NCBI RefSeq assembly: GCF_040782645.1
Contig: NZ_CP160403.1
Span: 8,343,001-8,407,000, forward strand
From: Streptomyces sp. HUAS ZL42
GTDB lineage: Bacteria > Actinomycetota > Actinomycetes > Streptomycetales > Streptomycetaceae
Length of the DNA stretch: 64,000 nt
Reading direction: 5' to 3'
Shown here: positions 19,904 to 45,946 of the stretch, in pieces
How the letters are laid out: every line of letters begins with the position of its first letter
Numbering within the stretch: the first letter of the stretch is position 1
The notes under the pieces: generated by a model
The model's database searches: none
The model's input: the letters and a program-made list of their open reading frames with translations, nothing else
Told to the model about the DNA's origin: nothing
Made by a program: the position numbers and the translations under genes

Positions 19904-19922
19904 TCATGAGACTGCTGCACAC
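19904..19922 (+). repeat. Left attachment site (attL) with sbcD stub
   Basis: TCATGAGACTGCTGCACAC. The ATG at 19906 opens M-R-L-L-H-T, the start of SbcD, after which the sequence diverges and a TGA follows at 19945-19947. It matches 17 of 19 bases at the right end of the island. The upstream 19799-19903 gap should hold the native sbcD promoter, now separated from the gene. Confidence 0.75.
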
Positions 19923-19923
19923 A

Positions 19924-20093
19924 TTTTCGGGGCGGTGCTTACCATGAGGTCCGCCGTTTCTGCAAAGGTGCAGGTCAGGGAGGTGTCGTTCCGTTAATGA
20001 GGGGCTCGTTGGTGGTGCCGGTGCTGGCTCGGTGCTGACCTGTGGGCACCCCTCGTCATCCCTGGTGACCTGTCCCGTGCTGGTTCCGTGCTG
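19924..20093. repeat. Left subterminal repeats, possible integrase arm sites
   Basis: Next to attL lie TTTTCGGGGCG (19924-19934), TTACC (19939-19943), TGCAGGTCAG (19969-19978) and two paired hexamers of form GTGCTG-N5-GTGCTG (20021-20037, 20077-20093). The same elements recur beside attR. The rest of the gap to 20430 shows no gene on either strand that I can support. Confidence 0.5.
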
Positions 20094-20430
20094 GGCGGAG
20101 TGAGGTTCGAGTTCTAGGCGACGGGGTGTGTGAGGTCTGACAGCCACGCTATTCGCAGTCGTCGGATGGGCTTGGCGAGGCGGTCGCCGATGGATCGGCT
20201 TCCATTTGCCTGCGCCGCAATGCCCGCACCACGATATTTTTCTCCGGCGAGCGGAGCTGTGAGTGCCGTTTTGATCGGCGTCGATCGTGCTGAACACGAT
20301 GCGCCAGTCGATGCGTTGGCGAGCTTGGTGAGGGACAAGTAGCGTGTGCAGGTTGATGCTGTCTTGGTCTGTGGAGATGCGAGGAGACCTTTGCGTGATT
20401 CCTTCGCAGTGAGAGCTGGCGGGAGTGGGC

Positions 20431-23400
20431 ATGCCTGACACCGATCTTTTGCGTGCCAGCCGTGACGGTGATCAGTTCCACTATCACTGGGCGGCTCGGC
20501 AGGCGCTTAAGTTGCTGCTCCCTGACGCGGATCTGACTGCGATCGCCATCGAGGGCGTGTCGCACGATGACACGGAGGGTCGCGATGGCGAGGACGTCAT
20601 TGATATCGCCGAGTACTACGGCTCTACCGGGCTCCGCGAAGCAAACCGTGTGGTGTATCGGCAACTGAAGCACTCGACGACGCGGGCTACGGAGGAGTGG
20701 ACCGTGTCGGGTCTTGCCGGGACAGTCAGCGGGTTCGCGGAGAAGTACCGGCGAATCCGGCTGGAGTCGCCGGGGCTGGAGCAGAAGGTGACCTTCGAGT
20801 TCCTTTCCAATCGGCCGGTCCGTGACTCCGTTCTGCGCGCGATCGGAATCCTGGCAGCAGGCGGGGCGCATGGCGCGTACGCGCACGAGGTCAAATTCCT
20901 CAAGCAGTATGCGGGGTTCTCCGACGGCGCAGATGGCGAAGCCGCGTTCTTCAATCAACTGGAGGTGGATCCCACAGCTCCGGGCCTGTTGCGGCTCGAA
21001 GGGCTGTTCCGGCTGGATCTGGCCGGTTTTCTGCCCGGTGCCCCCGATGTGCAGCCCCTTCTGCTGAAGGAGATGATCGCGAGACGCGCGACCTCGCTGG
21101 AGACGAATCACGTCGTCGATCGCGCCACTGTGCTTACGGCTCTCGGCGTCCCACCGGAGCGTGTTCTGCCTGCTCCCAACCTCATCGACCGGCCCGGGCG
21201 AGTCATCGTGACTCCGCAGACCGGCGCGATCGTCGACGAGATCGTGCGGCTCGCCCAGCGGCCGGTCATAGTCCACGCGGCAGGCGGTGTCGGGAAGTCC
21301 GTGCTCACCACGCAGATCGAACACGACTTGCCGGCGGGCTCCGTCACTCTCGTCTACGACTGCTTCGGGAATGGTGGTTACCGGCGCTCGAGCTCACCCC
21401 GCCACCAGCATCAACAAGGCTTGGTCCAGCTGGCCAACGAACTTGCTGCGCATGCCCTTTGCGATCCGCTGATTCCGGCCGGTACAGCCCAGCCAACCGA
21501 CTACGCGAAGGCGTTCATGGTCAGAGTCCGGGGTGCGGCAGAGGCAATCGCGGCCTCTACCCCCGGAGCGCTCCTAGTGCTTGTTGTGGACGCGGCCGAC
21601 AACGCGGCTCTCATCGCGAGAGAGAGTGGTGAACGCGCCTTCGCTACAGACCTGTTGCGAGAGTCCCTGCCCGACAACGTGCGCCTCGTCATGCTTGGCC
21701 GCACCGAACGTGTCGATCTGCTGGAACCACCGCCCAGCGTTCACAAAATCGAGCTTGCGGGGTTCGGGGCCACCGAGTCCAGGCAACACCTGGAATCAAT
21801 GTTCGGCGCGGTCACGGAGGCGCAGGCGGCCGAGTTCCACCGTCGCACGGGTGGCAACCCCCGGATCCAGGCCCTCGTACTCAGTACGGCATCGGACCTC
21901 GACTCCTGTCTTGCCTCCCTTGGAGAGGCGCGCCAACCCGACATCTCCTTGTTCGACGAGCTCCTGCAGAGCTTGGTGGACCACTGCAAGGACGCCAACC
22001 ACCACCTGAGTGCTGAGATCGACCGCCTGTGCGAGGCACTGGCCGCACTCCGGCCGAGGATTCCCGTCGGAGTTCTGACCGAGCTTTGCGGGGTGTCCGC
22101 CGCGCTCATTCACAGCTTCGCAGCAGATCTCGGACGCCCACTGCTCGTCGACGGCGACACCTTGCAGTTCCGTGACGAGCCGACCGAGACCTGGTTTCGC
22201 ACGAGATATCGTCCGGCTGGCGACTCCCTGATCGACTTCATCAACCGCCTGACACCGCTCGCCGCAGGTGAACCGTATGTGGCGGCCTCATTGCCTCAAC
22301 TGCTGTGGGAGGCCGGTCAGGTCGACACCCTTGTCGAGCTGGCGATGACCGACGGCGCCCTCCCCGAGGGCGACGATCTGGAACAACGGGAGATCGCTCA
22401 GCAGCGGGCCCAGTTCGCCCTCAAGGCCACGCTGCGCGTGGGCAAGGAGTGGGAGGCGGCCCGGCTGGCCGTCAAGGCTGGAAGCCTGGCCGCCGGCCAC
22501 TCTCGTCGGATTCATCTGCTGAGGAGCAATACCGATCTAGCGGGCGCGTTCCTGGACGCCAGCACGGTCGAAGACATAGTGGCGAACCGCAGCCTTGCCG
22601 CGGACTGGCCAGGTTCCAACCTTCACTTCGAAGGCGCCCTGCTCTCGTTCGCCGCAGGCCAGACCGACTTCGCCCGCAGCCGACTACGCAGCGCGGCGGA
22701 ATGGCTCAAGGCATGGGTGCGTCGGCCTGACGATGACGATCCGCACCGACACCACGTCACCGCGACGGACATCGCAGAAGTCGCCTTCGGGCTACTGAAC
22801 ACTGACGGGGTGGAGGCGTGCGCCGAATACTTGGCCCAGTGGCGCCCCAATCGGGTGGGCTTCGAAGCTGGAGTGATCATTACCACCCGGCTAGCCGACT
22901 CGGGCCGTACCGAGGAACTGGAGGCTCTCGGCCACGCGGCCACGCGTATGAAGTACCTCCAGTTCGCCGTCGCCTACGCTGCCTGGCAGGCCAACCTCGT
23001 CTGCCAGGCACCGCTTGCGCGGCGCCTGGTGAGAATGCTGAAACGCCAACGCAGACCCGTCTCCATTCGCTGGCATAGGGGTGTCCCGGAGGAGAACAAG
23101 GCGCTTCCGGCGGTCGGTTGGATCATCGCTATGGGGCTGCGCCACGGCGTGCTGTCGGACGCAGAGGCCGAACGCATCCTGCTTCTCAATCTCCCTGACG
23201 ACCTGGGCCGGGGCGCTGGAAGCCGCTACGGCCTGAACACCGACACACTCGCACTCCTGTGCGGCTTCGCACTGCTTTCGAAGATCCGGAGGCAGCCCTT
23301 CGACGCGGACATGGTTGCGGGCGACGACGTCCGTGAAGCGCGGCAACACCCTCATACGTACTCGCGCACACTGAACGACCATGAGCAGAGCGTCGTGCCC

Positions 23401-24873
23401 CTTGGTGTCTGGGCGAGCCTCTGGATCGACTGCCTAGTCGGAGCCTCCGGCGACACAGAAGTCCCGTTCCGAGATCTCGTGGCTTCCATGCCGGGGAAAC
23501 GTGGTGGACAAGAGGTGCCGTACTTCCTCTATCGAGGGGTCGCGCGACTGGGTGTCCGGATTCTCGCCTTCGGCTCGTCCGAGGCGACGCGTCGGCTCCT
23601 GCTCGACTGGTACCGGGCCACGCAGGGGAACATTGCACATGAAGTTCTGATTGACGCCGTCCGAGCGGCGGCCCCCGTTGATGAATTGCAGCATATTGCC
23701 GTCGAACTCGCGGAGTCCGTCGCCGCGTCGCTCGACACCACGCAGGACAGCGCTGAGTACAAGGCAGAGCAGATGGTGAAACTCGCTCGCGCCGTCCAGC
23801 GATTTGACACACGCGAGGCTCACGCCTACTTCACCAGGGCAATCGATCTGACCGACCGCGTCGGCGACGACGTACATGTGCTGTGGAGGAGCTTCCTTGC
23901 CGTCGCCCGCCGAGCCGCCGAGGGAAATCACGAAGACGATCGCCGCGCATATCGCGTTGCGCAGCTTGCTGAGAGCATTCAGCCCTACCTCGGTGACGGA
24001 ATGGATCACTCCGCGGTGCTGAGCGTCATGGGCCGCTTGAACCCGACGACCGCGACAGTCGTAGCTTCCCGCTGGCGTGATCGTCGCTTGTGTTCTGAGG
24101 GCCCGTTCATACAGGCACTTCTCGACGAGGAGGCGGGCCCGCTTGCTCCGTCCGCGGTCACCGCTCTCGCGACGGTGCCGTTCAACGAGCACCGTGTCGG
24201 CGCCCTTCGCCTCGTTGAACGGGCCCTTCGCGAGGCTCTCGACGACGGGGAACGCATCGCCGAAATTCTGGGAGAGTTCCTACGGGCACGTCGTTTCAGC
24301 AGCGAGTCCTTCGAACACCTTGACCAGACCGCCAGCGAATTGGGCATCGACCTCTCCGACACGTTGTTCGCCGTCCGGTCCCGCCACATCGCGTTCCCGG
24401 CGCCGTCCGGCTACAGCTCTCCCCGGTGGACGCGGGGTGAGGAGGACGATGAGCGAATGGCGCGTGCGCGACAGCTGGAGGGCGCCCTAGCAGCGTGTGA
24501 TCTCTCCACCCATGAGGGCTGGGAGAGGGCCCGCCAACTGGTTCGCGGGTCGGGCCACCTGCTGCGCATGGAGCAGGTCGTCGACCAGGCCGTCAGGGTG
24601 CCACTGCGCGAACTCGACGACATGCTCATAGCGTTCCAGTCCAATCCCCACCTCAGCACCTTCGATTACACACATCTGGTTCAGAGGCTGGACGAGCTGC
24701 CCTTGCTTCCCCTGGCCGCCCGCCAGCAGTTGCGTCGTCTTGCCGACACGGTCACCACGCGGTTCAGCCGGGAACTGACCACAAAGGGCTACGAGCCGAT
24801 CGACCTACAGGAGCTCGCCGGTCTGGCCGGCACACCTACTGATTTCCTCGGATTGTTGTCGGGTGGTGGGTGA
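20431..24873 (+). CDS. Avs-like STAND NTPase, C-terminus cut off by an IS
   Basis: The present frame encodes 1,480 residues. The N-terminal domain (~1-200) looks like a Cap4/PD-(D/E)XK nuclease: QFHYHWAARQALKLLLPDADL, then EDVIDIAEYYG and VVYRQLKHSTT (Q-x-K, residues ~77-80), then FEFLSNRPV. A STAND/NACHT NTPase follows, with Walker A AAGGVGKSVLTTQ (~283-295) and Walker B-like LLVLVVDAADNA (~379). The rest is a long helical-repeat region, the usual sensor part. This order matches antiviral STAND (Avs) proteins, which detect phage proteins and then cut DNA. The last 12 codons belong to the inserted IS630; the lost sensor end lies at 25984-27701. ATG 20431 follows GGGAG; GTG 20425 is an alternative. 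Confidence 0.7.
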   Translation: MPDTDLLRASRDGDQFHYHWAARQALKLLLPDADLTAIAIEGVSHDDTEGRDGEDVIDIAEYYGSTGLREANRVVYRQLKHSTTRATEEWTVSGLAGTVSGFAEKYRRIRLESPGLEQKVTFEFLSNRPVRDSVLRAIGILAAGGAHGAYAHEVKFLKQYAGFSDGADGEAAFFNQLEVDPTAPGLLRLEGLFRLDLAGFLPGAPDVQPLLLKEMIARRATSLETNHVVDRATVLTALGVPPERVLPAPNLIDRPGRVIVTPQTGAIVDEIVRLAQRPVIVHAAGGVGKSVLTTQIEHDLPAGSVTLVYDCFGNGGYRRSSSPRHQHQQGLVQLANELAAHALCDPLIPAGTAQPTDYAKAFMVRVRGAAEAIAASTPGALLVLVVDAADNAALIARESGERAFATDLLRESLPDNVRLVMLGRTERVDLLEPPPSVHKIELAGFGATESRQHLESMFGAVTEAQAAEFHRRTGGNPRIQALVLSTASDLDSCLASLGEARQPDISLFDELLQSLVDHCKDANHHLSAEIDRLCEALAALRPRIPVGVLTELCGVSAALIHSFAADLGRPLLVDGDTLQFRDEPTETWFRTRYRPAGDSLIDFINRLTPLAAGEPYVAASLPQLLWEAGQVDTLVELAMTDGALPEGDDLEQREIAQQRAQFALKATLRVGKEWEAARLAVKAGSLAAGHSRRIHLLRSNTDLAGAFLDASTVEDIVANRSLAADWPGSNLHFEGALLSFAAGQTDFARSRLRSAAEWLKAWVRRPDDDDPHRHHVTATDIAEVAFGLLNTDGVEACAEYLAQWRPNRVGFEAGVIITTRLADSGRTEELEALGHAATRMKYLQFAVAYAAWQANLVCQAPLARRLVRMLKRQRRPVSIRWHRGVPEENKALPAVGWIIAMGLRHGVLSDAEAERILLLNLPDDLGRGAGSRYGLNTDTLALLCGFALLSKIRRQPFDADMVAGDDVREARQHPHTYSRTLNDHEQSVVPLGVWASLWIDCLVGASGDTEVPFRDLVASMPGKRGGQEVPYFLYRGVARLGVRILAFGSSEATRRLLLDWYRATQGNIAHEVLIDAVRAAAPVDELQHIAVELAESVAASLDTTQDSAEYKAEQMVKLARAVQRFDTREAHAYFTRAIDLTDRVGDDVHVLWRSFLAVARRAAEGNHEDDRRAYRVAQLAESIQPYLGDGMDHSAVLSVMGRLNPTTATVVASRWRDRRLCSEGPFIQALLDEEAGPLAPSAVTALATVPFNEHRVGALRLVERALREALDDGERIAEILGEFLRARRFSSESFEHLDQTASELGIDLSDTLFAVRSRHIAFPAPSGYSSPRWTRGEEDDERMARARQLEGALAACDLSTHEGWERARQLVRGSGHLLRMEQVVDQAVRVPLRELDDMLIAFQSNPHLSTFDYTHLVQRLDELPLLPLAARQQLRRLADTVTTRFSRELTTKGYEPIDLQELAGLAGTPTDFLGLLSGGG

Positions 24874-25450
24874 GGCTGAGTCCGGTGCCGGCAAGGCAGC
24901 CGTCGATGAGGTCGTGCCGTAACTGGATATGGCGAAGTCCGCGGCGGAGGGTGCGTTCGAGGTGGTCGTCGTCGGTGAATGCGGTGTTGGCCAGCGGGCC
25001 GCGCCGTAACAGCGACCAGACGCCTTCCGCCGGATTCAAGTCCGGTGCATAAGAGGGAAGTTGGACGATGGTGAGCCAGTCGTGTTCGTCCGCGTACTGG
25101 CGCATGCCGGCGGCGAGATGGGTATTGAGATTGTCCCAGACGAGCACGATCGGGGCCTTGAGCTGGAGGTGCGCGCGCACCGCCAGGTCGCGGTAGTCGC
25201 GCCAGGAGAAGCTGTCGCGCCCTTTGCCCTTGTGCTTGCGGTGGCGGCGCGGCCGGTAGATCAGCCGGGAGGTTTCTCCTTGCTTGTAGCAGCACATGGC
25301 GGCGATCGACCAGCGGCGCCAGGAGCGGCCGCGCACCCGGACCACCGGCGTGTGCCCACGTCGGCCCCAGGTGCGGGCCCGCGGCGGTGTCATGGAAAAC
25401 CCCGCCTCGTCCTCGAAGACGATGTAGGCCCCCAGCGCCGCCGCGGTCAT
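24836..25450 (-). CDS. IS630 transposase, catalytic part (orfB)
   Basis: A 204-residue DDE domain: first aspartate in YIVFEDEAGFSM, second in VLVWDNLNTHLA and glutamate in YAPDLNPAEGVWSLLRRG, the order and spacing typical of IS630/Tc1-mariner enzymes. Its ATG (25450) overlaps the orfA stop (ATGA), so expression depends on reinitiation or a frameshift. The stop codon TAG is completed by the TA target duplication at the element's left end. The catalytic triad is intact, so the element may still move. Confidence 0.85.
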   Translation of the reverse strand: MTAAALGAYIVFEDEAGFSMTPPRARTWGRRGHTPVVRVRGRSWRRWSIAAMCCYKQGETSRLIYRPRRHRKHKGKGRDSFSWRDYRDLAVRAHLQLKAPIVLVWDNLNTHLAAGMRQYADEHDWLTIVQLPSYAPDLNPAEGVWSLLRRGPLANTAFTDDDHLERTLRRGLRHIQLRHDLIDGCLAGTGLSLTHHPTTIRGNQ

Positions 25451-25983
25451 TCCACCTGCGGCCACACGTCCTTCTTCCACAGCTCGACCGCATGCTCGTC
25501 GCGTTCCAGCGCGCGGCGGGCCGGGCACTGCCAGGACCAGCCGTGCCGGTGCAGCAGCCGCCAGACGGCTGCCGAGGAGCAGTCGATGCCGAACTTCCAG
25601 GCGATCAGCGCTCTGACCCGTGCCAGGGTCCACCGCTGGTCCTCCCAGCCGTGCTCGGCCGGCCCGAGGGCCAACTCCTCCTCCAGCACGGCGAACTGTA
25701 AGTCGGACACCTTGGGAAGTTTGGCCGGTCCCGTGGAGGCGAGGGCGTCCATCCCGCCCTCCTGCCAGGCACGACGCCAGCGCTCCACCGACCGCTCACT
25801 CACCCGCAGATCCCTCGCGATCACCGCGGTTCTCTCACTGCGTGCGAACCGCTCACCGGCCTGGTACCGGATCCGCTCACGAAACTTCCGCCGCTCGGCG
25901 GTCAGCCCACCGCCCTGCGCGTACCGCATACCACCGGCCTACCGCAGGGATCAGCATCCGACAACAGTCCGAAGAGATCAGTA
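24837..25983 (-). mobile_element. IS630-family insertion sequence
   Basis: Terminal inverted repeats of 32 bases including the TA (left 24837-24868, right 25952-25983) match at 27 positions. Both start TACTGAT and include TTGTCGG. The outer TA pairs (24837-24838 and 25982-25983) are the target duplication expected for IS630. The element carries two overlapping transposase frames on the minus strand. It split the Avs-like gene; removing it with one TA rejoins the two halves in frame (…GTP-NADLLG…). Confidence 0.85.
25447..25929 (-). CDS. IS630 transposase, DNA-binding part (orfA)
   Basis: A 160-residue protein with the paired helix-turn-helix region of IS630 transposases: RTAVIARDLRVSERSVERWRRAWQEGGMDAL (residues ~34-64) and a winged region RWTLARVRALIAWKFGIDCSSAAVWRLLHRHGWSWQ (~105-140). 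It ends at WPQVE, four bases into orfB. Together the two frames make a normal-length IS630 transposase. Confidence 0.85.
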   Translation of the reverse strand: MRYAQGGGLTAERRKFRERIRYQAGERFARSERTAVIARDLRVSERSVERWRRAWQEGGMDALASTGPAKLPKVSDLQFAVLEEELALGPAEHGWEDQRWTLARVRALIAWKFGIDCSSAAVWRLLHRHGWSWQCPARRALERDEHAVELWKKDVWPQVE

Positions 25984-27701
25984 ATGCGGATCTGCTCGGA
26001 ACGGCACTCCGGGAACTCGGTTCGCAGCCCGCTGAGTTCCTCCCTGAGGAGTGCTACCACCTGGCGGCCCGACTCGCTCCACGGCTCACCGGCGCACAGG
26101 CGCAGGTCGTCCTGGACGACTACGGGACCATGCTGGCCGCCCTTGCCCCCGACGATTCTGCCGACGGGATGTTCGCCGATCTTCCCGCCAAACCAGCAGA
26201 GGCTGCAGAATGCCTCGCAGGCTATCTGTGGACGGTCCTCGGCGACCCCGAGCACGGCGCGAGGTGGCGGGCGGCGCATTGCGTCCGACTCCTCGCTGAA
26301 CTCGGCTGCAAAGAAGAACTCGACGCGCTGCAGCGCTTCGCGCTGGGCACTCTTGACGTCACCCCGTTCCACGACGCCCGTCTGCCCTTCTACGACCGAC
26401 ACGCCCTCCAATGGCTGCTCTTCGCCCTCGCGCGTGCCGCTCAGAACACGGCAACGCATCAAGGACTCGTCGAATTCGAGCCGTTGCTGCGGAAGGTCCT
26501 CTTCGATGACGGACCGCATGTCGTGATGCAGGAAAGCGCGAAAGCGATCTGCCTCGCCCTGGCCTCTTCTGGCTACGGAAGTCTGACAGCGGACGAACTC
26601 GACATCGTGCGCAGTGTCAACAGCCCGAAGAAGGGCGTGAGTCAGTCATGGGCTGAGCTCAGGGCAAGGGAACTGAATGATACGGATGAGGGCTCCCTCG
26701 CACGTGAGCCGAGCGATTTCCGGTTCGACTGGGACTTCAAGGACCGCTGGTGCAGGCCGCTAGCGGAGGCTTTCGGAGTCTCCAAGGAGACGGTCCTGCG
26801 ACTCGCCGGGCATACCATCACGGCTAACTGGCAGCTCGCCTACCGCGGCGTACATGAGGACGACCCGCGCTACTCGCTGAAGCTGTACAGGGAAGGAAGT
26901 ACCTTCGCTCACCATACGACCTGGCCGGACGCGGACGATCTGGACTTCTATCTCTCCACCCACGCCCTGTGGACTGTCGCCGGGGAGCTGCTGAAGACGC
27001 ATCCTGTGTACCGGGACAGCGAGGCGGACACGGACCTGTTCACCGACTGGCTCGGTGCCTTCCTACTCACGCGCGACGACGGCAGATGGCTCGCCGACCG
27101 CCGGGACCCCTCGCCCCAGAGCATCTTCCGCGGACAGTACGACACACCAAAACCCGACTGGATCTGGCAGTTGAACAGCCAGCACTTCAGTGAGCGTCTC
27201 CTGGCGAGCGACGGATGGGTCACAGTCTGGGAAAGCTCCGACGACAGCAGCTACCAGGCCGCGCAACAAGTCCTGATCCACAGCGCCTTGGTCACTGCCG
27301 AAAAGGGCAGGGCGCTCGCTCTCGCCTTGCAGACAGCGCCTTCATACATGGCGTACCGCATTCCGAACGCCGACGACAGTGACTACCAATTCGATACCCA
27401 AGGCTTCCAGCTGACCGGCTGGATCGTCACCCCGGACGGCTGCGAAGGTCAGGACAACAGAGATCCACTGGCCGCTCGGGTCCGGTACCCGCCGTACCGA
27501 CCCGCTGACAAATTCGTCGGCCTGCTAGGGCTGGAACCGGACGCAGACATGCGCGAATGGACTCGTGCCGACGGCACCGTCCTCCGCAGCGCCGTCTGGA
27601 ACGACACAGCCGAGACCACTTCGGAGCATGTGACAGGAACTAAGGGAGAGCGGCTGAAAATCCGACGTGACGCCCTCCAAGAACTCCTCTCCCTGACCTG
27701 A
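25984..27701 (+). pseudogene. 3' fragment of the Avs-like NTPase gene
   Basis: This frame, without its own start, continues the Avs-like protein after the IS: NADLLGTALRELGSQPAEFLPEECYHLAARLAPRLTG and on for about 571 residues. Helical-repeat character continues (AAHCVRLLAELGCKEELDALQRFALGTLD) and the end is a mixed domain finishing ALQELLSLT. In Avs proteins this C-terminal end recognises the phage trigger, so its separation should disable sensing unless the IS leaves. Joined to 20431-24838 it would give one protein of about 2,041 residues. Base use is like that of the 5' part. Confidence 0.75.
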
Positions 27702-27783: not shown

Positions 27784-28548
27784 ATGACGAATCCCTCCCA
27801 CCGCGCGAACGGTCCTACAAGATTTACCTCCTCGATGACTCCGGAGGATGCGGCGAACTTTGAGCGAACCCTCGAACTGGGCAAAGAAATCGCAGCCAGC
27901 CTCTCGGACCACGACGTTCTGGGCCGGTGGATGGCCCACCACATCGGCGACTTGATCATCCGCGCGGAGACAGCCTCTGATGCGGAAGCTGACAATCTGC
28001 AGCGTGAAACGGCGACCGCTGTGCTCGCCTTGTGGAAACACCGTGCGGCACTTCCCATCAACAGACCGCCGCTGGATACGTTCGCGCCCGTTTTCACCGC
28101 ATTGGCACGACTCGGAGATCCTCAAAATCCATGGGATTTCTACCGGATGTTTCGTCCCGGGAGTGAACCCACCGAGGACGACTTGGCCGGAACGCCCTTG
28201 CTTCGAATCGCGCTGAACCTTGAGGGGACTATCCATCGCGTCGTACGCGAAATCGTCGTAGTCGCGTCACGGGAAGCCGCCAACAGGGAAGCGAAGTGGC
28301 TAAGCCTCTCGGACCATGTCGAAGAGGACGAACAGCGAGCAGCGCGGGACGCCATCCTCGAGTTGGCACGGACCCTAGAGATGTACTCCGATGATGCTGA
28401 CGATCAACCAGCAGTGTCGGAAACGGGGACCTCGAAGTTGATCACGACGCTTCGGCGTGCCGAGACGCAGCTCGCAGAAGCCCGGGAAGCACTTGAGGAG
28501 CGTCTAGCCAGGACGTCGCCCGAGAGTGAGCCTCGCGACTCAGTGTGA
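27784..28548 (+). CDS. Hypothetical protein downstream of the Avs-like gene
   Basis: A 254-residue soluble, mostly helical, acidic protein that I do not recognise. Residues ~20-60 (EDAANFERTLELGKEIAASLSDHDVLGRWMAHHIGDLI) and ~220-245 (LITTLRRAETQLAEAREALEERLA) look like coiled-coil or bundle helices, with a glutamate-rich stretch between. It begins 82 bases after the Avs-like gene in the same direction, with similar base use, so the two were probably an operon. It may be a small partner or regulator of the NTPase. That role is inference from position only. Confidence 0.55.
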   Translation: MTNPSHRANGPTRFTSSMTPEDAANFERTLELGKEIAASLSDHDVLGRWMAHHIGDLIIRAETASDAEADNLQRETATAVLALWKHRAALPINRPPLDTFAPVFTALARLGDPQNPWDFYRMFRPGSEPTEDDLAGTPLLRIALNLEGTIHRVVREIVVVASREAANREAKWLSLSDHVEEDEQRAARDAILELARTLEMYSDDADDQPAVSETGTSKLITTLRRAETQLAEAREALEERLARTSPESEPRDSV

Positions 28549-28789
28549 ATTGGTGCTGCTTGCCGGATCAAGCGCCTGCAGACAGCGATGCCGACCCCGA
28601 CTGCGGCAACGATGGGTCGTGTCCCTCGTCGTGGTGTTGGGAATCAACTGGCGGGCGTGTTCGGGGCGTTGGGTAGCGCAGGCGCGCTTTCAGGGAGTTG
28701 GCGGTAGATCTCGCCCAGCTGCGTTCGGGGAGATGGCGGCGTGGGACGTCGAGAAGGGGACTTTGCAAACTGAGCCGCCCGGAGGTCTG

Positions 28790-29122
28790 AAGGTCGAGCC
28801 GGCCGACTACGCGCTGGGACGGTCCCGGCGCGGACAGCGCCGTGGCCCGCTGCTCGCGCTCGAGCCCGCCGGCGCTCCGCAGGATGCCACCGAGCGGTTA
28901 TGGATCGTGGACGGCACCCTCATTCCCGTCCGCGACCGCATGGTGGGCGGCACCTTCTCACGTAACTACCGATTCTCGGCGAACGTGCAGGTCATCGCGA
29001 ACGCGGACACGAGCCTGGTGGTGGCCGCCGCCCGCCCGGTGCCGGGCACGACTGCGGATGCGAAAGCCTGGCGCTTGTCGGTGCGGCGTTGTGGCTGGAT
29101 ACGGTTCACGAGCGCGTCCTGA
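28790..29122 (+). pseudogene. Transposase fragment (IS5-like DDE)
   Basis: A partial DDE transposase: ERLWIVDGTLIPVRDR (first aspartate), SRNYRFSANVQVIANADTSLVVAAARPVPGTTADAKAWR (second catalytic region), then degenerate to the stop at 29122. Both ends are missing, and I found no inverted repeats. It marks a dead insertion between the Avs-like unit and the PIWI-RE cluster. The stretch 28549-28789 before it looks like decayed IS DNA; 29123-29308 holds the promoter side of the methylase gene. Confidence 0.6.
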
Positions 29123-31335: not shown

Positions 31336-31356
31336 GGGCTTGGCAGGCACGTGGCT

Positions 31357-34733: not shown

Positions 34734-34789
34734 GGGAAGTTCGAGCCTTCTCCGTCAAGTCGTTCATCATACCACCTGGAGTGAGAACC

Positions 34790-38900: not shown

Positions 38901-39701
38901 CGCGGCAGCGGTGGACCAGCCGCCACCGCCCCCGGGCAGCCGGACGAGACTCCGGCGACACTAAGGCGTGGCGACGTCGCCCGCTTCGCCGACGACGACA
39001 CCGCAGAAGTCCTGGTCGCTCCCCTGCTGGCCGTCGAGCGTGGCCACAACATCCTCAACGAGGAGGGCAAAGCGGCCTTCGGCACCGCCCTGTTCCTGGT
39101 CCGCCCGCACCCCCGCCCCGACGACCTCGACCTGTCCGTCTTCGCAGTCAACGACTGGCTGAGCGGCATGCTGCGCGACGAGCCGCGCCGCGACAGCCTC
39201 GACGGCCCGCACACGCTCACCGAACTCATGGAAAAGGAAGGGTCGCTGGACGAAGCGGCCCGAGCCCTGCGTCACCAGGGCCGCCGCGAATGGCGCCGAC
39301 TGCTCAACCGCAGGTACGCCTACAGCTCACTGCCCGCCTGGGAGAAGCGCGCCTTTGCCTGGGACCAACTTGTCACGCTGTGGCAAGTCATCGGCCGTCT
39401 GGTACGCGGCGGAGTGCCCGCGCGGGTGGTCTTCGTCGATGCCGCCTTCTCGCCACGCCTGGCGAGGCAGCTCGCACCCGGCAGCACAGGCCAGCCGTCC
39501 CCCGTGACCGATGCGCCGGGCACCGACGGCCTGCTCCATGCCCTCGGTGGCATCCTCGACCCCTACCTGACAGACCGGCCACGCGCCGAAGAGGCCGAGC
39601 CCGACTCCGCATCGCTCCACCCCGATGCGGCGGCTCGCGCGCTGGTCCGTCTCCTGTACCAGCCGTTCTACAACGCCCTCAGCACAATGACCCACCGCTG
39701 A
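35982..39701 (+). CDS. DinG-like helicase of the PIWI-RE cluster
   Basis: A 1,239-residue superfamily 2 helicase. Walker A is HLAGMVGAGKSTFM (~residues 258-271). A cysteine-rich insertion (STACPVSGL, CTRLHPEPQRC, HGCPLWAECPRH, ~350-430) could hold an iron-sulfur cluster as in XPD/DinG. The DEAD box is LIFVDEADSVQ (~475), and motif VI is WQVIGRLVRGGVPARVVFVD (~1130). The N-terminal ~220 residues are a helical domain specific to these islands. The ATG at 35982 follows GGGAGGG and overlaps the REase stop, so the two are translationally coupled. It would unwind the nucleic-acid duplex for PIWI-RE; this is known only by family association. Confidence 0.75.
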   Translation: MRDEKAWCDSVAGELGEEWSEAGAPDGFGPVELCRVELGLRLLELIAPSADAADAYVLFGGYPFAQRAGLAQQPWQRMALASARHLLWQFRRRAWRQALDSYRLVSDRLRAYELPPDGTAGGPRPVVPMVAGRRMDVYDQTLTQLPSLITRTLKPAPAGTSSFQERRRIASVTIPEELVFANPPGHDLAAGRPGGGEPLSVCRGELRATARWMDERERQVGVQHPGHWEQRLEGVRFAPRDAAGMDYTEADEVELAGMVHLAGMVGAGKSTFMILVAVWAARRAIPLRTTLVVGDVAEQLRLCGLFDLLGIAVAPVLGATTREQHVQRLHRRLSARGLDNLLDHDDPGFDLLSTACPVSGLRGIEGDPLEYRDAPCTRLHPEPQRCAAEPETVVLEQWAPDRRATAPRMTHAQDRLPGRPHGCPLWAECPRHAAARAQVDALIWVANPASLVQSQVPAHLNEERLRQLELACLRSDLIFVDEADSVQMALDRLFTPSGTLVRPDTDSWLDQLNRYKIEELSRRARLPLTDGQVAQWNRALGTVTLAVDPLCALLIKNEDLREWADPAYFSPWTLQQSLLDDLFRDVTQRYRESVQGQAAQEASAADDTASDSAELYEGYDDVAQEPGPSPHLALSPVRRLLEEAWDTFRDDPFGEGEALDPLSRVLADTADALLHHMAAGRTKERVRKLAGQLVDQVTEEARAEQPAAATPPPEPTQDWWDALCLRLSFLLLLSTLHHRLERLTFLWPHVEAALRLDSQGRELARRVPLDYAPLVPEAPMGNVLGYQYLPDGEERDDAGRRGGTLRFFRCAGVGRELLLNLNSLGADPATGLGGPHVVLMSGTSWAGESSRAHVRVPVSLVLKPTDASLAAVARTAFATRFLYDRDGRPMSLSGTPPRDRLAQAVAMARRLGEPGPGGTSVLGQEISRIPETTRRRALILVGSYREATAVAEALHRFDAWRGKVSALIPDDEARGSGGPAATAPGQPDETPATLRRGDVARFADDDTAEVLVAPLLAVERGHNILNEEGKAAFGTALFLVRPHPRPDDLDLSVFAVNDWLSGMLRDEPRRDSLDGPHTLTELMEKEGSLDEAARALRHQGRREWRRLLNRRYAYSSLPAWEKRAFAWDQLVTLWQVIGRLVRGGVPARVVFVDAAFSPRLARQLAPGSTGQPSPVTDAPGTDGLLHALGGILDPYLTDRPRAEEAEPDSASLHPDAAARALVRLLYQPFYNALSTMTHR

Positions 39702-39732
39702 CCCCCCGCCTCAGCTCGCGAGGAGTTGACCC

Positions 39733-42700
39733 ATGCCACCCGTCTACCGCTCCGCCCGCACCACAGCCTGGCGCCCGACCGACGCCTTCGCCTCTCATAC
39801 CGCGCCCTACCGCGTCCTGCCCTTCCCCGAGCAGTGGCGGGACGCCGTCCTGACCCTGTGCAACGCGCCCCGGGTGGCAGCGGGCAAGGAGGCGTGGCGG
39901 ACAGCTCCGACCTGGCGTTTGGAACAGGTCCTCCAGGCGTTCGCGCCAGACGTCCTTGCGCTGCCACGCCCTTTCCACGACCGCGACCGGGACGCGCCGG
40001 CCCACTGGCTGTGTGCGCCCGCCGACCTGCCCGACCCGCTCCCCGGCCCGGCCCTGGACACGGTTCTCAAGCATTGGCTGCGTGACCTGCGGCCCGAGAT
40101 CGAGTACCGCGGCCTGCTGAAGGAGACCATCGCAGAATTGGCTGCCCATCCACCGCGCTGGGAGACCGTCCACCACGAACTCATGCCGCGTGACACGACC
40201 CCAGGCGGCACCGCGCGTCCGTCACCGCACCAGTACAGCCTCAGCCCCGACTGGCTGGCCCGCCGGATCCTCGCGCTGGGCCCGTACCCGTACGACGGTG
40301 GGCAACTCGTCTTCCGAGCCATGCCGCGCGGACCGCGTGACCAGGGTGCCCAACTCGTCTCCGAGCCGATCCGGTTTCCCGGCCCTGACGAAAAGCATGA
40401 CTCCTGGTGGTCGGTAACGCTGTCGATCACGCTTCAGACCGTGCCGTTCGACCCGCTGCCGCGCTTCAACCTCCGCTGGTCGGTTCGCCGTTGGGCCACT
40501 CGTACCAGCGCCAAGACGGGCCGGTTGCACCTCCCGTGGGGTGCGAGCACCACCGTCCTGCTGCGTCCGCGCAGGCCATTCCTGCCGGGCACGCCCCGCA
40601 GCGAGCGGTTCGCCATCGCCGGTCTGGAGCGTTACTGGGACAAGGACCTGGGCGAGACGGGCGACTTCGCCGACCGGTGGCGCGCGGGCGGCCCTGCAGC
40701 GATGCTCGCCGGACTGCCCCTGGGCGAGCCCTTCCCGGACGCCGACGCGATCCTGACCGATCCCGCGTCCTGGCTGCGCGACGACGCCCGGGCCGGTGTC
40801 CTATACCGCACCGCGATGGGACGGCACGATGTGGGTCCCGGCTTCATGGCACATCAGCTCTCGCAGCTCACTGCCTGGGCGGAGGGCGCCCTTACGCCCG
40901 AGGTACGCCGCGCGCCGGACCTCTCGTTGATCGACAGGGGCGCGCCCGCGAACATCCCCAAGGGGGGCAAGGAGACGGTCGACGCGGAGCGGTGCGCTCA
41001 GCGCAGGCTAGCGACAGCCTATGCGCTGGACGCCCTCGATGGCGTGGCGCGCCAGGCCGGCGCTCCCGTGCTTGAGGCACGGCTGCTGTGGCAGTCGCCG
41101 CGGCTGCGTGACGCCGCTTTGGCTTCCCTCGCCGAGCATCTGGGCCTCAAGGGCGACGGCGGGTCCTTCACTGCACAGCAGTACGACGAGGCCACGGCTG
41201 GTGCAGCGGTGGTGCACGAATGGACTGCTCCGGAGCTGACCGTGCGGGTCCACTGCTTGCGCCCGCTCATCGCGCTCGGTGACCGCACCGCCGACAGCCT
41301 CCTTGCCCCCCTTGACCTGCCCACCGGCACTCGCATCAAGGACGCCCAGGTGACCGCGGCCACCGCAGCCCGCCGCGACAGCGCCGCACAGTGGCTGGCC
41401 GCGGAACGCACCACCGACGCGCCGGCCCTGGCCCTCGTGGAGATCGGCCGCGCCGCGTCCTACCCGAGCAGACTGCACGACCCGAAGTTCGCCATGCGAC
41501 TCGGGTGCGCCAAGGCCAGCTTCGTTACACAGTTCACCACCGTGCCCGTGACAGGTGACGAGAACGGCAAAGGCGCGGAGACAGCGTCCAGCCTGAGGCA
41601 CCGCACGCTCAGTGCCTGGAACGACGGCCTGCGGCAGCTCGGCGCGCGTACCGTCCCGCGGCTTGCCGCAGAGGACGGGCTGCCCGACGGGCTGCGGCAT
41701 GCTGCACTGTGGATGGTCCGCAAGAACCGTACAACCCGCAATCGCTGGGCCGCCTACCTCCCGGTCGGCGTCATGGTCACCCCCGATCCGGCTGGCACCG
41801 GCGCCGCCCGCGTCGAAGGTTGGGACCCCGAGGCGCGCTCCGGCGCCGGAGCGTGGGTTCCCTACCCCGAACTCCTGCTGAGGCTGACCACAAAGGCCGA
41901 GGTCAAGCCCGTTGTGCCCGGCCAGCGCGAACCACAGGACCAAGCCGCGAACACGTCGGAATCGCAGACGGAAAGTGAGGCAGAGCGCCCGAAGCGCTAC
42001 CAAGAGCGCGAACGGCAGCGCCGCGAGGCCGCCGAGTGGCTCCAGGGCCTGCGTGCATCATTGCGTACCGCGCCGACCGTCCTGTTCGCCGAGGCCCACA
42101 ACGCTCGCTCGCACTGGACCTGGCTCCAAGACGGCCGGGTCGAACAGGATCGCTTGCAAGACGGCCTCGCACCCGCTCGTCGCCTCGACCCCGACCTGAG
42201 GCTGGTCCGGGTCCGCGCAGGCTCCCGGAACGAGACACCGCAGTGGTGGGGGAGAGCCCCAGAGGGCAAGGCAAACGGCATCCAACAGGGCTTGTGGGCG
42301 CCGGAAAACACCGCTGAGAACGCCCGAGTCTTCTTCAGCACGACGGCCAAGCCCGTACAGTTCAAGCACGCGGCGGTAACCGCCGACAAGCTCGCGCCTC
42401 GGCCGATCGCCCAGGGCAAGCGCAAGGGCGAACCCACCATCGATACCGGCCAGGCAGCGTGGATGCCTGGGCTGCTGGAGATCGCCGTCCTCGGTTGCCA
42501 CCGGGACGACGGCGACGACCCGAAGTCCCTCGCGCTCCTCACCCACGTTCTGCGCCAGCCCTCGGACTACGACCAGCCTCTTGCCCTGCCCCTGCCGCTC
42601 CACTTGGCTGGCCTGGTGCAGGAGTACGTCCTGCCGACACCGAAGGACGATGAGGCGGAGGATGCGGAATCAGGAGAGGGGGCGGCGGGCCAACCCGGTG

Positions 42701-42819
42701 CTTCGAACGATCTCGACGACGCGCAGGACGCATCGCCGGTGGAACAGCCTGTGCCGGACCTGGAGTCGGAGGCCGCGGATGCCGACACTGAAGGGCAGTT
42801 GCAACTGTTCGCCATGTGA
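39733..42819 (+). CDS. Prokaryotic PIWI-RE (Argonaute-like) protein
   Basis: A 1,028-residue protein with the layout of the pPIWI-RE family: an N-terminal X region (~1-330), a MID-like region (~480-600) containing ALVEIGRAASYPSRLHDPKFAMRLG, and an RNase H-fold PIWI domain (~770-960). Family hallmarks are TVLFAEAHNARSHWTWLQDG, with the conserved E and R that give the family its name, LRLVRVRAGSRNETPQWW, and GLWAPENTAENARVFFSTTAKPVQF. A low-complexity acidic tail ends it. The catalytic DEDX tetrad of slicing Argonautes is not evident, so guided binding rather than cutting is likely, with the nearby nucleases as effectors. The ATG at 39733 follows GAGGAG and lies 31 bases after the helicase. Confidence 0.85.
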   Translation: MPPVYRSARTTAWRPTDAFASHTAPYRVLPFPEQWRDAVLTLCNAPRVAAGKEAWRTAPTWRLEQVLQAFAPDVLALPRPFHDRDRDAPAHWLCAPADLPDPLPGPALDTVLKHWLRDLRPEIEYRGLLKETIAELAAHPPRWETVHHELMPRDTTPGGTARPSPHQYSLSPDWLARRILALGPYPYDGGQLVFRAMPRGPRDQGAQLVSEPIRFPGPDEKHDSWWSVTLSITLQTVPFDPLPRFNLRWSVRRWATRTSAKTGRLHLPWGASTTVLLRPRRPFLPGTPRSERFAIAGLERYWDKDLGETGDFADRWRAGGPAAMLAGLPLGEPFPDADAILTDPASWLRDDARAGVLYRTAMGRHDVGPGFMAHQLSQLTAWAEGALTPEVRRAPDLSLIDRGAPANIPKGGKETVDAERCAQRRLATAYALDALDGVARQAGAPVLEARLLWQSPRLRDAALASLAEHLGLKGDGGSFTAQQYDEATAGAAVVHEWTAPELTVRVHCLRPLIALGDRTADSLLAPLDLPTGTRIKDAQVTAATAARRDSAAQWLAAERTTDAPALALVEIGRAASYPSRLHDPKFAMRLGCAKASFVTQFTTVPVTGDENGKGAETASSLRHRTLSAWNDGLRQLGARTVPRLAAEDGLPDGLRHAALWMVRKNRTTRNRWAAYLPVGVMVTPDPAGTGAARVEGWDPEARSGAGAWVPYPELLLRLTTKAEVKPVVPGQREPQDQAANTSESQTESEAERPKRYQERERQRREAAEWLQGLRASLRTAPTVLFAEAHNARSHWTWLQDGRVEQDRLQDGLAPARRLDPDLRLVRVRAGSRNETPQWWGRAPEGKANGIQQGLWAPENTAENARVFFSTTAKPVQFKHAAVTADKLAPRPIAQGKRKGEPTIDTGQAAWMPGLLEIAVLGCHRDDGDDPKSLALLTHVLRQPSDYDQPLALPLPLHLAGLVQEYVLPTPKDDEAEDAESGEGAAGQPGASNDLDDAQDASPVEQPVPDLESEAADADTEGQLQLFAM

Positions 42820-43065: not shown

Positions 43066-43164
43066 TTGTCTGCGGCAACAATTCCTTGACCAGGAAGGCG
43101 ACTTGATGGCGATGGAGGGGCCCCAAGGCGCGGCGCACGTACCACTCGACGTAACGTGCCTCGT

Positions 43165-44484
43165 ATGGTGGCGATCCTGCGGTGCACTTCTGATGAAGAG
43201 ACGTTTCTTGCCCATCTTCGGCGGCCGGGCCAGTTCGAGGCCGGCTGGGAGTCGGTCGGGGAACGTGACGTATGGAAGAGCAGTCACGTCGTTCTCGTAG
43301 TGACCGGACAGGCGAGCGGTCGGCCCCTTGTCGAGTACGTCGGGCATGCCAAGAGTGGCCGGCGCGCGGGCACGTTCCGTAAGACGATCGAGGTGACGCA
43401 GCTTCATCGCATCAAGCCCCCCGTCCCGATGGAGCAGCTGTCTGATCTGATGCATCCGCGGCACCGGCGCGTGACCGGCTTGTCCGGCGCGCTGACGAAG
43501 CGTGCCGGGGAGGAGTTGCTGGACGCGCTCACCACATCTCGTGCCGATCTCGCTGATGTCATTGCTCGCCTGCAAGAACGGGTGGGTGGGTTTCGCATCC
43601 TCGGCCGAGTGCGGGAGCTCTTCGTGGAGGAACGAGACGCCACCGGGCTGGCGCTTCAGCTAGGAGGATTCGATCGGAGCATCATCGGTGAAGCACGCTT
43701 TCCGGATGAGGACGGGGACCGCGTGCCGGTCCTCGCTACGCTGCCAGGTCATCCAGCACACGAGGATCATCTCGTCTTCCATGATGCGCAACGGTTCTCG
43801 GATTGGATCGGCAGCGATGCTGAGCACCTCGCGAAACGGGTTTTCAGTAAGGGAGATCAGAAGCTCTTCATAGCTAACGTCAACCGCCTGCCAGCGGAGG
43901 ACACGCTGGGGATCGACTTGATCTACCACCATGTGAATCGGGACAGCTTCGTCCTTGTCCAGTACAAGAAGATGCAGCAAATGGGAGCGGGCCGCAGTGA
44001 GTGGGGATATCGCCCGGACGCTGACTTGGACGAGCAGCTGAAGCGCATGAGGGACGTCGAAGAAGCGTGCAGAAAGCTCGACCAGGAACCGCCCCTCGAC
44101 TACCGCCTCGACCCGCAGCCCTGCTGGATCAAGTTCTGCAAGGCCGAGCAGACGGCGCCCAAGGGAGATGCGCTGATCGGCGGGATGTACTTGACGCGGG
44201 AGCATATTGAGTGGCTGCGCCACCAGCCCGGTCTCGCGACCGGCCCGAAAGGGGGAGAAGTCTTTGGTTATCACACGGTGCCCCGATACTTCGATAACAC
44301 TACCTTCACTCAGCTCGTCCAGGACGGCTGGATCGGCACTCGCGGCAAGGCAAGCGGAATCATCCGGGACCAGATCGAGGCCAGTCTCAATGGCTCGCGT
44401 TCCTTGGTCTTCGCGGCACTTATCGGCGACGAGATGACGCAGGCCGAGCGTACGAGAGAGCGGCGAGGAGGCTCAGCGGGCTGA
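43165..44484 (+). CDS. Nuclease-like protein paired with a HEPN protein
   Basis: A 439-residue soluble protein. I do not recognise the whole, but its centre (LGIDLIYHHVNRDSFVLVQYKKMQQ, residues ~247-272) has the D…Q-x-K pattern of a PD-(D/E)XK-type core: D in GIDLIY and QYKK on the next strand. The N-terminal ~150 residues are a separate domain (FEAGWESVGERDVWKSSHVVLVV). The C-terminus is helical with FCKAEQTAPKG. It is followed after 159 bases by a HEPN/zinc-ribbon gene in the same direction. Start is uncertain between GTG 43156 and ATG 43165; neither has a clear ribosome site. Confidence 0.5.
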   Translation: MVAILRCTSDEETFLAHLRRPGQFEAGWESVGERDVWKSSHVVLVVTGQASGRPLVEYVGHAKSGRRAGTFRKTIEVTQLHRIKPPVPMEQLSDLMHPRHRRVTGLSGALTKRAGEELLDALTTSRADLADVIARLQERVGGFRILGRVRELFVEERDATGLALQLGGFDRSIIGEARFPDEDGDRVPVLATLPGHPAHEDHLVFHDAQRFSDWIGSDAEHLAKRVFSKGDQKLFIANVNRLPAEDTLGIDLIYHHVNRDSFVLVQYKKMQQMGAGRSEWGYRPDADLDEQLKRMRDVEEACRKLDQEPPLDYRLDPQPCWIKFCKAEQTAPKGDALIGGMYLTREHIEWLRHQPGLATGPKGGEVFGYHTVPRYFDNTTFTQLVQDGWIGTRGKASGIIRDQIEASLNGSRSLVFAALIGDEMTQAERTRERRGGSAG

Positions 44485-44643
44485 CCATCGAAGCGTCTGC
44501 TCTATACAAAAACGTGATCAGGTTGTGTTGCCGCGCAGGCGCGCGAGGGCGACAGCATGTCCTTGAGATGATGTTCTGGCGGCCGGTTGGCGGCTGTCAC
44601 GTCCAGGGCGATCACGCGCAGGCAAGGGGAGGATGCGGGGGAC

Positions 44644-45681
44644 ATGGCGGGAGCGGATGACGACGACGTCGCTGGGAAGGTGGAGGCGGAGCTGCCAGCT
44701 GTAACGGCAGAGGCCGAAGTGGAGGTCAAGGACTTCCACTTTCCGCCTGTGCTGAACGGTCTCGACTTCCTCCAAAGCGCGGTCAAGTCGCTGTCAGGCG
44801 AGGACGGCAGCCCGGCCCCGCGCGACCTGAAATACGCCGTGCTGCACCTCCAAGCCGCGGCCGAGACTCTGTTCAAGGCTCGGCTGGAGATGGAGGACCC
44901 CAGCCTCGTCTGGAGCAAGCCCGCGACTTTCGACCAAGCCAAGCACGAGGCCGGCATCTTCCACAGCTGCGGCATCAATGCGGCCCTGGAGCGGCTGCGC
45001 GACGACGTCGGCATCAAGACGGCCATCGAGCCTAAGTACGCCGACCTGGAGGCGTTGGCCAACCTGCGCAACCGACTCCAGCACTTCGGAGCCAAGGACA
45101 CAACCATCGCCGTCCAGGCGAGGACCATCCCGGTGCTCGACCTGCTGCTCAATTTCATCGACACCGACGTGTTGCCTCACGACTCCTCCCCCGAGGCGTG
45201 GGACGCGCAACTTCAGATGGACGACATCCGGGCCGGATTCAGGCACCTCAAGGACTTCGTCGCCCACCGACTTGAAGCGCTGGGTGAGGTCCTGGATACC
45301 TTCAAGGACTCCACGGTTGCCTGCCTGTCCTGCGGCCAGTTCGCCGTCGTGCTGGACGGCAACGAGTCAGTCCAGTGCTCTCTGTGTGGACGTCGGTATG
45401 GCGGCGGCTCCGACGCCGCTTGGGAGTTCGCCGGCACCAGCTACTACTCGGTTGTGACGGATGGCGGTGACACCCCCGTGCACGACTGCTCTGAATGTGG
45501 CACGACCGCTGTCTTTGCCGCTCCTCTCGCGAGCTCGGACGGGGTGGACGTGTTGATCTGCTTCGCCGACGGCAACACGTTCGAGGGCATCTGCCAGTAC
45601 TGCGGTCGGGCAGCCGACTTTGCGTTGGAGGAAGCAGAGATGTGTCAGGACTGCCTTGATACGCGATTCGCCAAGTTCTGA
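44644..45681 (+). CDS. HEPN-domain protein with C-terminal zinc ribbons
   Basis: A 345-residue protein. The HEPN-like domain (~40-190) has LHLQAAAETLFKARLEMEDPSLV and LEALANLRNRLQHFG (R-x4-H). Residues 200-240 are a helical linker. Zinc-ribbon cysteine pairs follow: CLSC and CSLC, then CSEC, CQYC and CQDC to the end. The helix LH-xx-xAxE-x-L-x-KA-x-L-x4-P-x-L is shared with the protein at 10579-11508, as is the RN-x3-H loop, so the two are members of one family. Many HEPN proteins are RNases in defence. It is the last island gene and probably works with the nuclease-like protein before it. ATG 44644 follows GGGGAGGA. Confidence 0.6.
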   Translation: MAGADDDDVAGKVEAELPAVTAEAEVEVKDFHFPPVLNGLDFLQSAVKSLSGEDGSPAPRDLKYAVLHLQAAAETLFKARLEMEDPSLVWSKPATFDQAKHEAGIFHSCGINAALERLRDDVGIKTAIEPKYADLEALANLRNRLQHFGAKDTTIAVQARTIPVLDLLLNFIDTDVLPHDSSPEAWDAQLQMDDIRAGFRHLKDFVAHRLEALGEVLDTFKDSTVACLSCGQFAVVLDGNESVQCSLCGRRYGGGSDAAWEFAGTSYYSVVTDGGDTPVHDCSECGTTAVFAAPLASSDGVDVLICFADGNTFEGICQYCGRAADFALEEAEMCQDCLDTRFAKF

Positions 45682-45866
45682 GAGCCTGCACGAGCACGGT
45701 GTGTTGCTGGGGTCGGCATCTTTCAGCAGAGCATGGCGGACCAGCGGCATCGGAAAGGTCAATCAATTCCACTGGCGCGATGGTTGATGTGAGATCGCGA
45801 TGTGAGGTCAGTGGTGGATCAGGTGCTTCCAGGCGTTAGCGTGGTGGGTGTCAGTCCGGGGTTCCC

Positions 45867-45920
45867 GTGCTGACTTGTGCTGGTTTTTTGGGGCGTTACC
45901 GAGAGAAACATGCAGGTCAG
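45867..45920. repeat. Right subterminal repeats, possible integrase arm sites
   Basis: GTGCTG-N4-GTGCTG (45867-45882), TTTTTTGGGGCG (45884-45895), TTACC (45896-45900) and TGCAGGTCAG (45911-45920) precede attR, repeating the elements found after attL. In the circular form they would flank the core on both sides. Confidence 0.5.
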
Positions 45921-45927
45921 AGCCGTT

Positions 45928-45946
45928 TCATGAAATTGCTGCACAC
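45928..45946 (+). repeat. Right attachment site (attR) at the sbcD start
   Basis: TCATGAAATTGCTGCACAC supplies the ATG and first six codons of the intact sbcD (M-K-L-L-H-T). It differs from attL at two positions, both G/C to A/T, suggesting that this copy came with the element. Confidence 0.75.

Follow-up and report, generated by a model that had tools for sequence, protein, structure and literature searches.

A defence-rich island at the 5' end of sbcD in Streptomyces, read as an integrase-less member of a site-specific element family that renews the front of the gene

Some integrative elements enter the 5' end of a conserved gene and rebuild it. In the portions of PMC8409611 used here, SXT/R391 integrative and conjugative elements (ICEs) in prfC and the integrative mobilizable element (IME) IMEVchUSA3 in dusA enter in this way and provide the promoter, the reading frame and the N-terminus; the 5' end of prfC is also given as the SXT site in the corresponding part of PMC4344509. 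The actinomycete ICEs (AICEs) of Streptomyces undergo accretion and decay, leaving partial-integrase remnants with cargo and repeats, and their insertions are also found in protein-coding genes (14), according to the sections of PMC9513070 that we drew on. For the HK022 prophage, the relevant section of PMC6814406 describes a promoter within the integrated element that drives a neighbouring host gene, torS. Here we analysed a 64,000-nucleotide stretch of the Streptomyces sp. HUAS ZL42 genome (the window; G000:C1:8343001-8407000, from a 9.87-Mb single-contig genome), in which an island of defence genes interrupts the DNA-repair gene sbcD. We put the probability at about 0.9 that this island belongs, in integrated form and now without an integrase, to a family of site-specific elements whose attB is the 5' end of sbcD, with the integrase recombining attP with attB in CTGCACAC and the right end of the element becoming the new sbcD front. 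Mobile islands insert in the first sbcD codons in Streptomyces and close relatives, and the new front often outlives the integrase gene.

The sbcD elements resemble SXT in prfC and the dusA IMEs, as portrayed in the above sections, in that they enter the 5' end of a conserved gene and rebuild it. They differ in gene, phylum and integrase, the new N-terminus amounts to codons 1-3 only, and, unlike in the SXT and dusA elements, many species retain the right end after the integrase is gone. Expression has been measured for systems of the SXT/dusA type, whereas the sbcD islands are known from sequence alone. With the AICEs of PMC9513070 they share the genus Streptomyces, integrase plus excisionase, direct repeats, tandem accretion, protein-coding targets and remnants; unlike AICEs, the sbcD islands as mapped are without an FtsK/TraB-type gene, and their rebuilt target-gene start and lasting takeover of the front are not described for AICEs in the consulted part of that paper. 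HK022 affects transcription of torS only, as far as that source goes, whereas the sbcD islands replace the start of the coding sequence. sbcD goes unmentioned in the main texts of PMC9513070 and PMC3218068, although supplementary tables of the former may list an sbcD site, and a search of the literature on sbcD with attB and integrase, integrative elements and defence hotspots found no description of the site among the titles and abstracts listed. The principle is known, and both the site and the integrase group are apparently new within a comparison that leaves aside the pSLS integrase subfamily, which does not use tRNA genes (PMC3218068, section on that subfamily). A lasting takeover of a host-gene front is unusual.

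The ends of the island are marked by a 19-bp direct repeat, TCATGAGACTGCTGCACAC on the left and TCATGAAATTGCTGCACAC on the right, identical at 17 of 19 positions and located exactly where the initial annotation had placed it. Across the 9,866,886-bp genome, the 17-bp motif ATGARRYTGCTGCACAC is present only two times, each at an island end, and a reversed control gave 0 matches. The features around the two junctions are as follows:
19172..19798, + strand: yigZ (IMPACT family), the left chromosomal neighbour, which adjoins sbcD in empty relatives (TIGR00257, E 3.6e-57)
19811..19905, + strand: stranded native sbcD upstream region, with a -10-like TTAGTCT 8 bases before the left ATG
19904..19922, + strand: attL core, the 19-bp repeat including the six first sbcD codons
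19923..20110, + strand: left end (putative attP arm), with TTTTCGGGGCG, TGCAGGTCAG and GTGCTG-type direct repeats
45802..45885, + strand: right end, part 1, vestige of the last ~28 integrase codons (VRSVVDQVLPGVSVVG..., one stop inside), with a putative promoter TGGATC-N16-TAGCGT
45886..45929, + strand: right end, part 2, putative attP arm with TGCAGGTCAG and with GGTCAGAG, the likely sbcD ribosome-binding site
45928..45946, + strand: attR core, the 19-bp repeat that forms the start of the intact sbcD
45930..47093, + strand: intact sbcD, codons 1-3 from the element (TIGR00619, E 7.7e-56)

The left repeat copy holds six codons (M R L L H T) from a lost sbcD start, after which the frame runs through FSGRCLP to a stop in island sequence. 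The intact gene starts at 45930 and takes ATG AAA TTG CTG CAC AC from the right copy; its first three codons are ATG AAA TTG, versus ATG AGA CTG on the left. Both the left stub and the borrowed first codons had been proposed in the initial annotation, and both are borne out. The insertion lies in the 5' coding end of sbcD and leaves one truncated copy and one rebuilt copy, whose start codon and N-terminus come from the element. The left copy lies 110 bp past the last yigZ codon (an offset of 111 bp), and the upstream region at 19811..19905 resembles the sequence that precedes sbcD where the site is empty (L003, L022 and L025, for example) and that would act as the native promoter. The repeat pair behaves as attL/attR. 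The left copy follows the host type as far as CTG and the right copy the element type as far as TTG or ATT, with CTGCACAC common to both; the exchange is therefore placed in CTGCACAC (sbcD codons 4-6), and the exact crossover probably lies inside it. It follows that the start codon, codons 2-3, the leader and, judging by motif only, the promoter come from the element. The earlier proposal of integration precisely at the start codon therefore holds for the 5' end of sbcD, with the exchange moved from the ATG to codons 4-6.

The sequences next to the cores are conserved between loci. An alignment of left ends (14 rows, two of which are the same place) extends over about 190 bp and contains GTGCTG-type repeats and a TGCAGGTCA site. 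For the window left end, the alignment score was 199 against genome G049, where 1000 shuffles reached at most 37, and 60 against an internal att site of strain H27-S2, where they reached at most 31. Right ends carry the same kinds of sites, and their second part is conserved across an alignment of 101 right ends. We read the left and right ends as attP with arm sites, and both window ends are intact in core and arms. Also conserved in the right-end alignment are TGGA-C, 16 bases and TAGCGT, a putative promoter, and GGAG 7 bases before the start, a putative ribosome-binding site. Conservation across the three codon positions of the right end is flat (0.80, 0.97 and 0.86 bits), which would fit a constraint at the DNA level rather than the protein level but is not decisive. 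Direct repeats of about 19 bp flank many insertions, and the island does contain an insertion sequence; the repeat could accordingly be a target-site duplication made by a transposon or an insertion sequence. We regard this as highly improbable, given that the same fixed target is used in many species, that the copies differ as attB and attP types (ATGAGRCTG on the left versus ATGAAATTG or TTGAGAATT on the right) and that conserved arms of roughly 130-190 bp are present at both ends.

To place the site in the genus, we searched 392 genomes and found sbcD in 386 and yigZ in 386. The best 150 rows of each gene yielded both genes in 136 genomes, and in 132 of these the two share contig and strand; distant species are missing from this set because only these rows were used. 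yigZ and sbcD had been predicted to be neighbours without the island, and the gap between them is at most 400 bp in 85 of the 132 genomes (median 114, with 64 of the 85 in the range 90-150), 400-1000 bp in 7, and more than 1 kb, up to 41.8 kb, in 40. The usual empty layout is yigZ, ~110 bp, and then ..TTAGTCTCGGGGATC-ATGAGRCTSCTGCACAC.., that is, the unbroken GC-rich sbcD start expected at empty sites; relatives devoid of the yigZ-sbcD neighbourhood, which would have spoken against attachment sites, were not what we found. When the window flanks were joined at the core, they aligned in a single stretch through the junction with 17 of the 30 loci L003-L032 (best, L025, 89% over 1900 bp); the remaining 13 include occupied and more diverged sites. 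Among the 40 large-gap genomes, sbcD is preceded by the window-type right end, ..AGGGGTAAACGTGCAGGTCAGAGCGATTTC-(A/T/G)TGAGATTNCTGCACAC.., in 31 (29 by motif, and G014 and G211 by eye), by the native front in 8, and by an unclear sequence in 1 (G068). A wider scan of 64 regions gave 49 with the window-type right end (45 by motif, 4 by eye). Intact left ends next to yigZ were also seen in H27-S2 (G392) and G012, and remnants of left ends in G316 and G367. With up to 1 mismatch, the right-end pattern occurs in 54 of 394 Streptomycetaceae genomes and 3 of 17 genera (reversed control, 0), counted as matches without reading their neighbourhoods. The yigZ-sbcD interval is a hotspot for mobile DNA in the genus.

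Two observations concern the interval itself. Five genomes (L065-L069; G388, G063, G141, G140 and G339) contain a 9.6-9.9 kb block in the interval ahead of an sbcD with the native front, and the sequence that immediately follows yigZ is related among them; this is seemingly another use of the interval that is unrelated to the att sites. At L038, the yigZ match of G279 is split (residues 1-115 and, separately, 137-207), and the gene may be broken.

An intact integrase adjoins sbcD in Streptomyces sp. G-G2. It is a 406-residue tyrosine integrase (PF00589, E 2.8e-15) that ends 22 bp before sbcD, with an HTH_17 Xis-like open reading frame (ORF) upstream, and the 3' end of its gene is the conserved right end. 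G012 encodes a 97% identical copy, with sbcD 25 bp past the last matched codon, and strain CB02959 a 71% identical copy whose matched part includes one stop; after these, the best match in the 392 genomes is at 49%. R216, H326, R329, H352 and Y362, which we take to be the catalytic set, are invariant in 15 integrase sequences. A C-terminal tail of the same kind is kept in the database relatives P0001-P0004, P0007, P0009 and P0011; P0005 and P0006 end before it, and relatives at about 50% identity have other tails or none. Eroded 3' ends of the integrase gene precede sbcD in many loci, and the window vestige aligned as DNA with the G-G2 integrase 3' end with a score of 84 (maximum of 28 in 1000 shuffles). 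Of the pair of integrase and excisionase typical of AICEs, the window has an integrase vestige only; the pair is present in G-G2, with an integrase also in G012. This identifies the integrase group that moving cargo would need.

From these data we propose that complete members carry a tyrosine integrase gene at their right end and that this integrase would recombine attP with attB in the shared CTGCACAC. On the left, sbcD would leave behind its native promoter region together with six of its codons. On the right, the integrase 3' end and attP arm would take over as promoter region and ribosome-binding site of sbcD and supply its start codon and codons 1-3.

Elsewhere, the integrase had no match in plasmids at E<=1e-60, and showed at most 33% identity to phages among the matches listed (10 of 15 records) and at most 41% to viral contigs. 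The att ends were found neither in viral contigs (two exact patterns) nor in phages. In plasmids, the left-end query had no match, and the right-end query matched p1 of Streptomyces sp. BHT-5-2 as well as one Aeromonas record, the latter weakly (E 0.04). The former (L108, NZ_CP081497.1) is a 2.8-Mb 'plasmid' that has sbcD with the right-end leader, and may be part of the chromosome.

Attachment sites also occur in tandem. The right end matched 84 stretches in genome contigs, from which 80 loci were read (L109-L188). At 75 of the 80 the right end leads into sbcD, and at 1 a contig end cuts it just after the core; the other 4 run into a left end, in the order right end-core-left end (ISL-66, H27-S2 twice, and G-G2). 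Additional internal junctions are found in G321 and CB02959 (L214). In H27-S2, one contig reads yigZ-attL-6.7 kb-att and a separate contig att-72 kb-attR-sbcD. The 72 kb between the two att sites (L193-L197; G392:C33:10496-82300) are without FtsK-type matches. Likewise, FtsK/SpoIIIE-type proteins (PF01580) had no match in the window island or in the mapped array parts of G392, G393, G394, G398, G012 and G049. Other cargo between the same repeats had been anticipated, and it is present as 8.1 kb in G049 and as tandem units in G321, H27-S2, G-G2 and ISL-66.

A cis-mobilisable att-flanked element is called a CIME. The window island has attL and attR and lacks its own integrase, and like CIMEs the sbcD islands have such ends beside integrase-bearing units or replaced by them; mobilisation, a CIME trait, is only predicted here. 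The idea is also found in the part of PMC9513070 used above. Compatible with our main reading, the island could be a CIME-like unit rather than a fossil, mobilisable in cis or trans, in active exchange and moved by integrases of co-resident or incoming elements. The intact cores and arms of the window fit this, as does G-G2, where several att junctions accompany one integrase-bearing end adjoining sbcD. Against it, the window's genome has no intact integrase of the G-G2 type at E<=1e-60, and most other loci are without a left end. We hold this extension to be possible, at somewhat below even odds; with a helper integrase, the window island might still move.

We calculated an sbcD tree from 107 distinct rows with the first 10 codons omitted (78 right-end, 27 native, 2 unlabelled). 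Rows left as 'other' by the motif rule were assigned by eye (5 right-end and 11 native, before duplicate removal) and 2 were left out; L043 and L044 were counted as native, though their leader resembles a deletion product of the right end. Since rows were partly picked by the right-end pattern, the proportions of states on the tree are not prevalences. The tree requires at least 20 changes of front, 10 of them forced by well-supported branches, which excludes a single insertion inherited unchanged. Start codons behind the right end are TTG (68), ATG (42) and GTG (21), and ATG in 33 of 33 cases with the native front (defined by the native -10 motif), in counts that include duplicates, as some genomes are listed under both G and L loci. 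The switching may explain the differing sbcD start codons in the genus, and provides a natural experiment in which one conserved repair gene stands under two alternative fronts.

A different origin of the leader would be that it is the old native leader of some lineages, with islands gathering there by homologous exchange and the left repeat being incidental. The right end is indeed common (131 of 182 sbcD records read, a figure with duplicates and biased sampling), it is often without cargo, with yigZ-sbcD gaps from 134 bp, and homologous exchange could account for some of the switching seen on the tree. Nevertheless, in the window and G049 a native promoter region with an sbcD start is stranded on the left, and the leader on the right is of the other type. 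Junctions of the attP kind are also present at places that do not adjoin sbcD, the sequence serving as leader is an integrase gene's 3' end, and the fronts are interspersed on the tree, where at least 10 changes are forced. We consider this origin very unlikely.

Several points weigh against site-specific integration as we describe it. Empty and occupied sites, att ends, tandem units, the passage from integrase to right end, the window vestige and the switching of fronts are all read from genomes, and recombination is unobserved. An intact left end beside yigZ was seen in only 2 of the 64 regions scanned (the window and G049), which also favours the native-leader origin, and because intact left ends are this rare, insertion at most loci is judged from the right end alone. 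The window island contains no intact integrase, nor, as stated, does its genome contain one of the G-G2 type, and the vestige taken as protein is weak on its own (tblastn, 61% over 28 residues, E 0.17). None of the scanned genomes yielded a complete element in which an intact integrase and both ends share one stretch. The G-G2 element is broken over contigs, and in G012 (C1) attL and yigZ lie at 6.269 Mb (minus strand) and attR, integrase and sbcD at 8.470 Mb (plus strand), 2.2 Mb apart; a large rearrangement seems to have cut the element at the site. The 8 of 40 large gaps with a native front indicate that other insertions also use the interval. Finally, the fronts are somewhat clustered on the tree (20 changes versus a shuffled mean of 24.3; 7 of 500 shuffles as low), and the changes could be gains, precise losses or exchange by recombination.

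Within the site-specific reading, right ends with gaps from 134 bp indicate that a new front can outlast its cargo. The integrase 3' end, located in attP such that integration brings it in front of sbcD, may double as a host promoter and, once the integrase has died, be kept as the permanent promoter, leader and (often non-ATG) start of sbcD, so that repeated switching would have reset expression of the SbcCD nuclease in many Streptomyces lineages and left promoter scars even with little or no cargo. We give this proposal an even chance; promoter activity of the right end is suggested by its motifs.

The cargo of the window island is as follows:
20425..27701, + strand: Avs3a-like gene in two ORFs (20425-24873 and 25620-27701), split by an insertion sequence (PADLOC Avs3a, E 0 and 6.8e-116)
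27784..28548, + strand: Avs3b-like (PADLOC, E 7.6e-27)
28526..29122, + strand: 198-residue ORF with no family match in profile searches
29231..31312, + strand: N6 adenine DNA methylase (PF02384, E 2.9e-30)
31357..33024, - strand: protein kinase, PD-T4-6-like (PF00069; PADLOC, E 2.9e-55)
33051..42819, + strand: four-gene pPIWI-RE module (PD-(D/E)XK nuclease, Y/REase protein, Z/DinG-like, pPIWI protein)
43156..44484, + strand: 442-residue protein of no clear family (DUF7124 match below cut-off)
44587..45681, + strand: PDC-S64 / DUF3644-like (PADLOC, E 9.2e-14 and 7.9e-15)

The window island is rich in defence genes, with 10 of its 12 main ORFs matching PADLOC at E<=1e-10. Cargo at other loci consists of mixed metabolic, transport and regulatory genes, the commonest Pfam family being MFS_1 (6 ORFs, among the 25 of 123 families listed). 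This sample comprises 132 ORFs from 15 stretches (133 were picked automatically and one 2509-residue ORF was omitted); not all of the stretches have both ends proven. At most 9 of the 132 ORFs match PADLOC at the same threshold, versus at most 2 of 42 chromosomal control ORFs; these are upper bounds, based on 9 families with one member each and, for the control, 2 families. When 14 stretches were searched for shared genes, none proved common to the elements. Cargo across genomes is not enriched in defence, so that the site looks like a general hotspot, of which the window island is an unusually defence-rich case. The suggestion that the site marks a hotspot stands for the interval (40 of 132 genomes above 1 kb), and is weak for defence cargo. 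For Streptomyces genomes, the site offers a fixed, predictable address for mobile cargo, here the Avs3 and pPIWI-RE defence genes.

Two smaller features lie within the cargo. The insertion sequence in the Avs3a-like gene (24837-25983) encodes a DDE_3 transposase (24836-25633, minus strand) and has 32-nt inverted ends that are 84% complementary; because it interrupts the gene, Avs3 of the window is probably inactive. A motif scan for tyrosine recombinases, in which the few other matches were unlike recombinases, gave one convincing match, the C-terminal remnant LHEVSRRLGHRSVKATVDVYGH of a second, different tyrosine recombinase at 42997-43062 on the minus strand, inside the ORF at 42943-43575.

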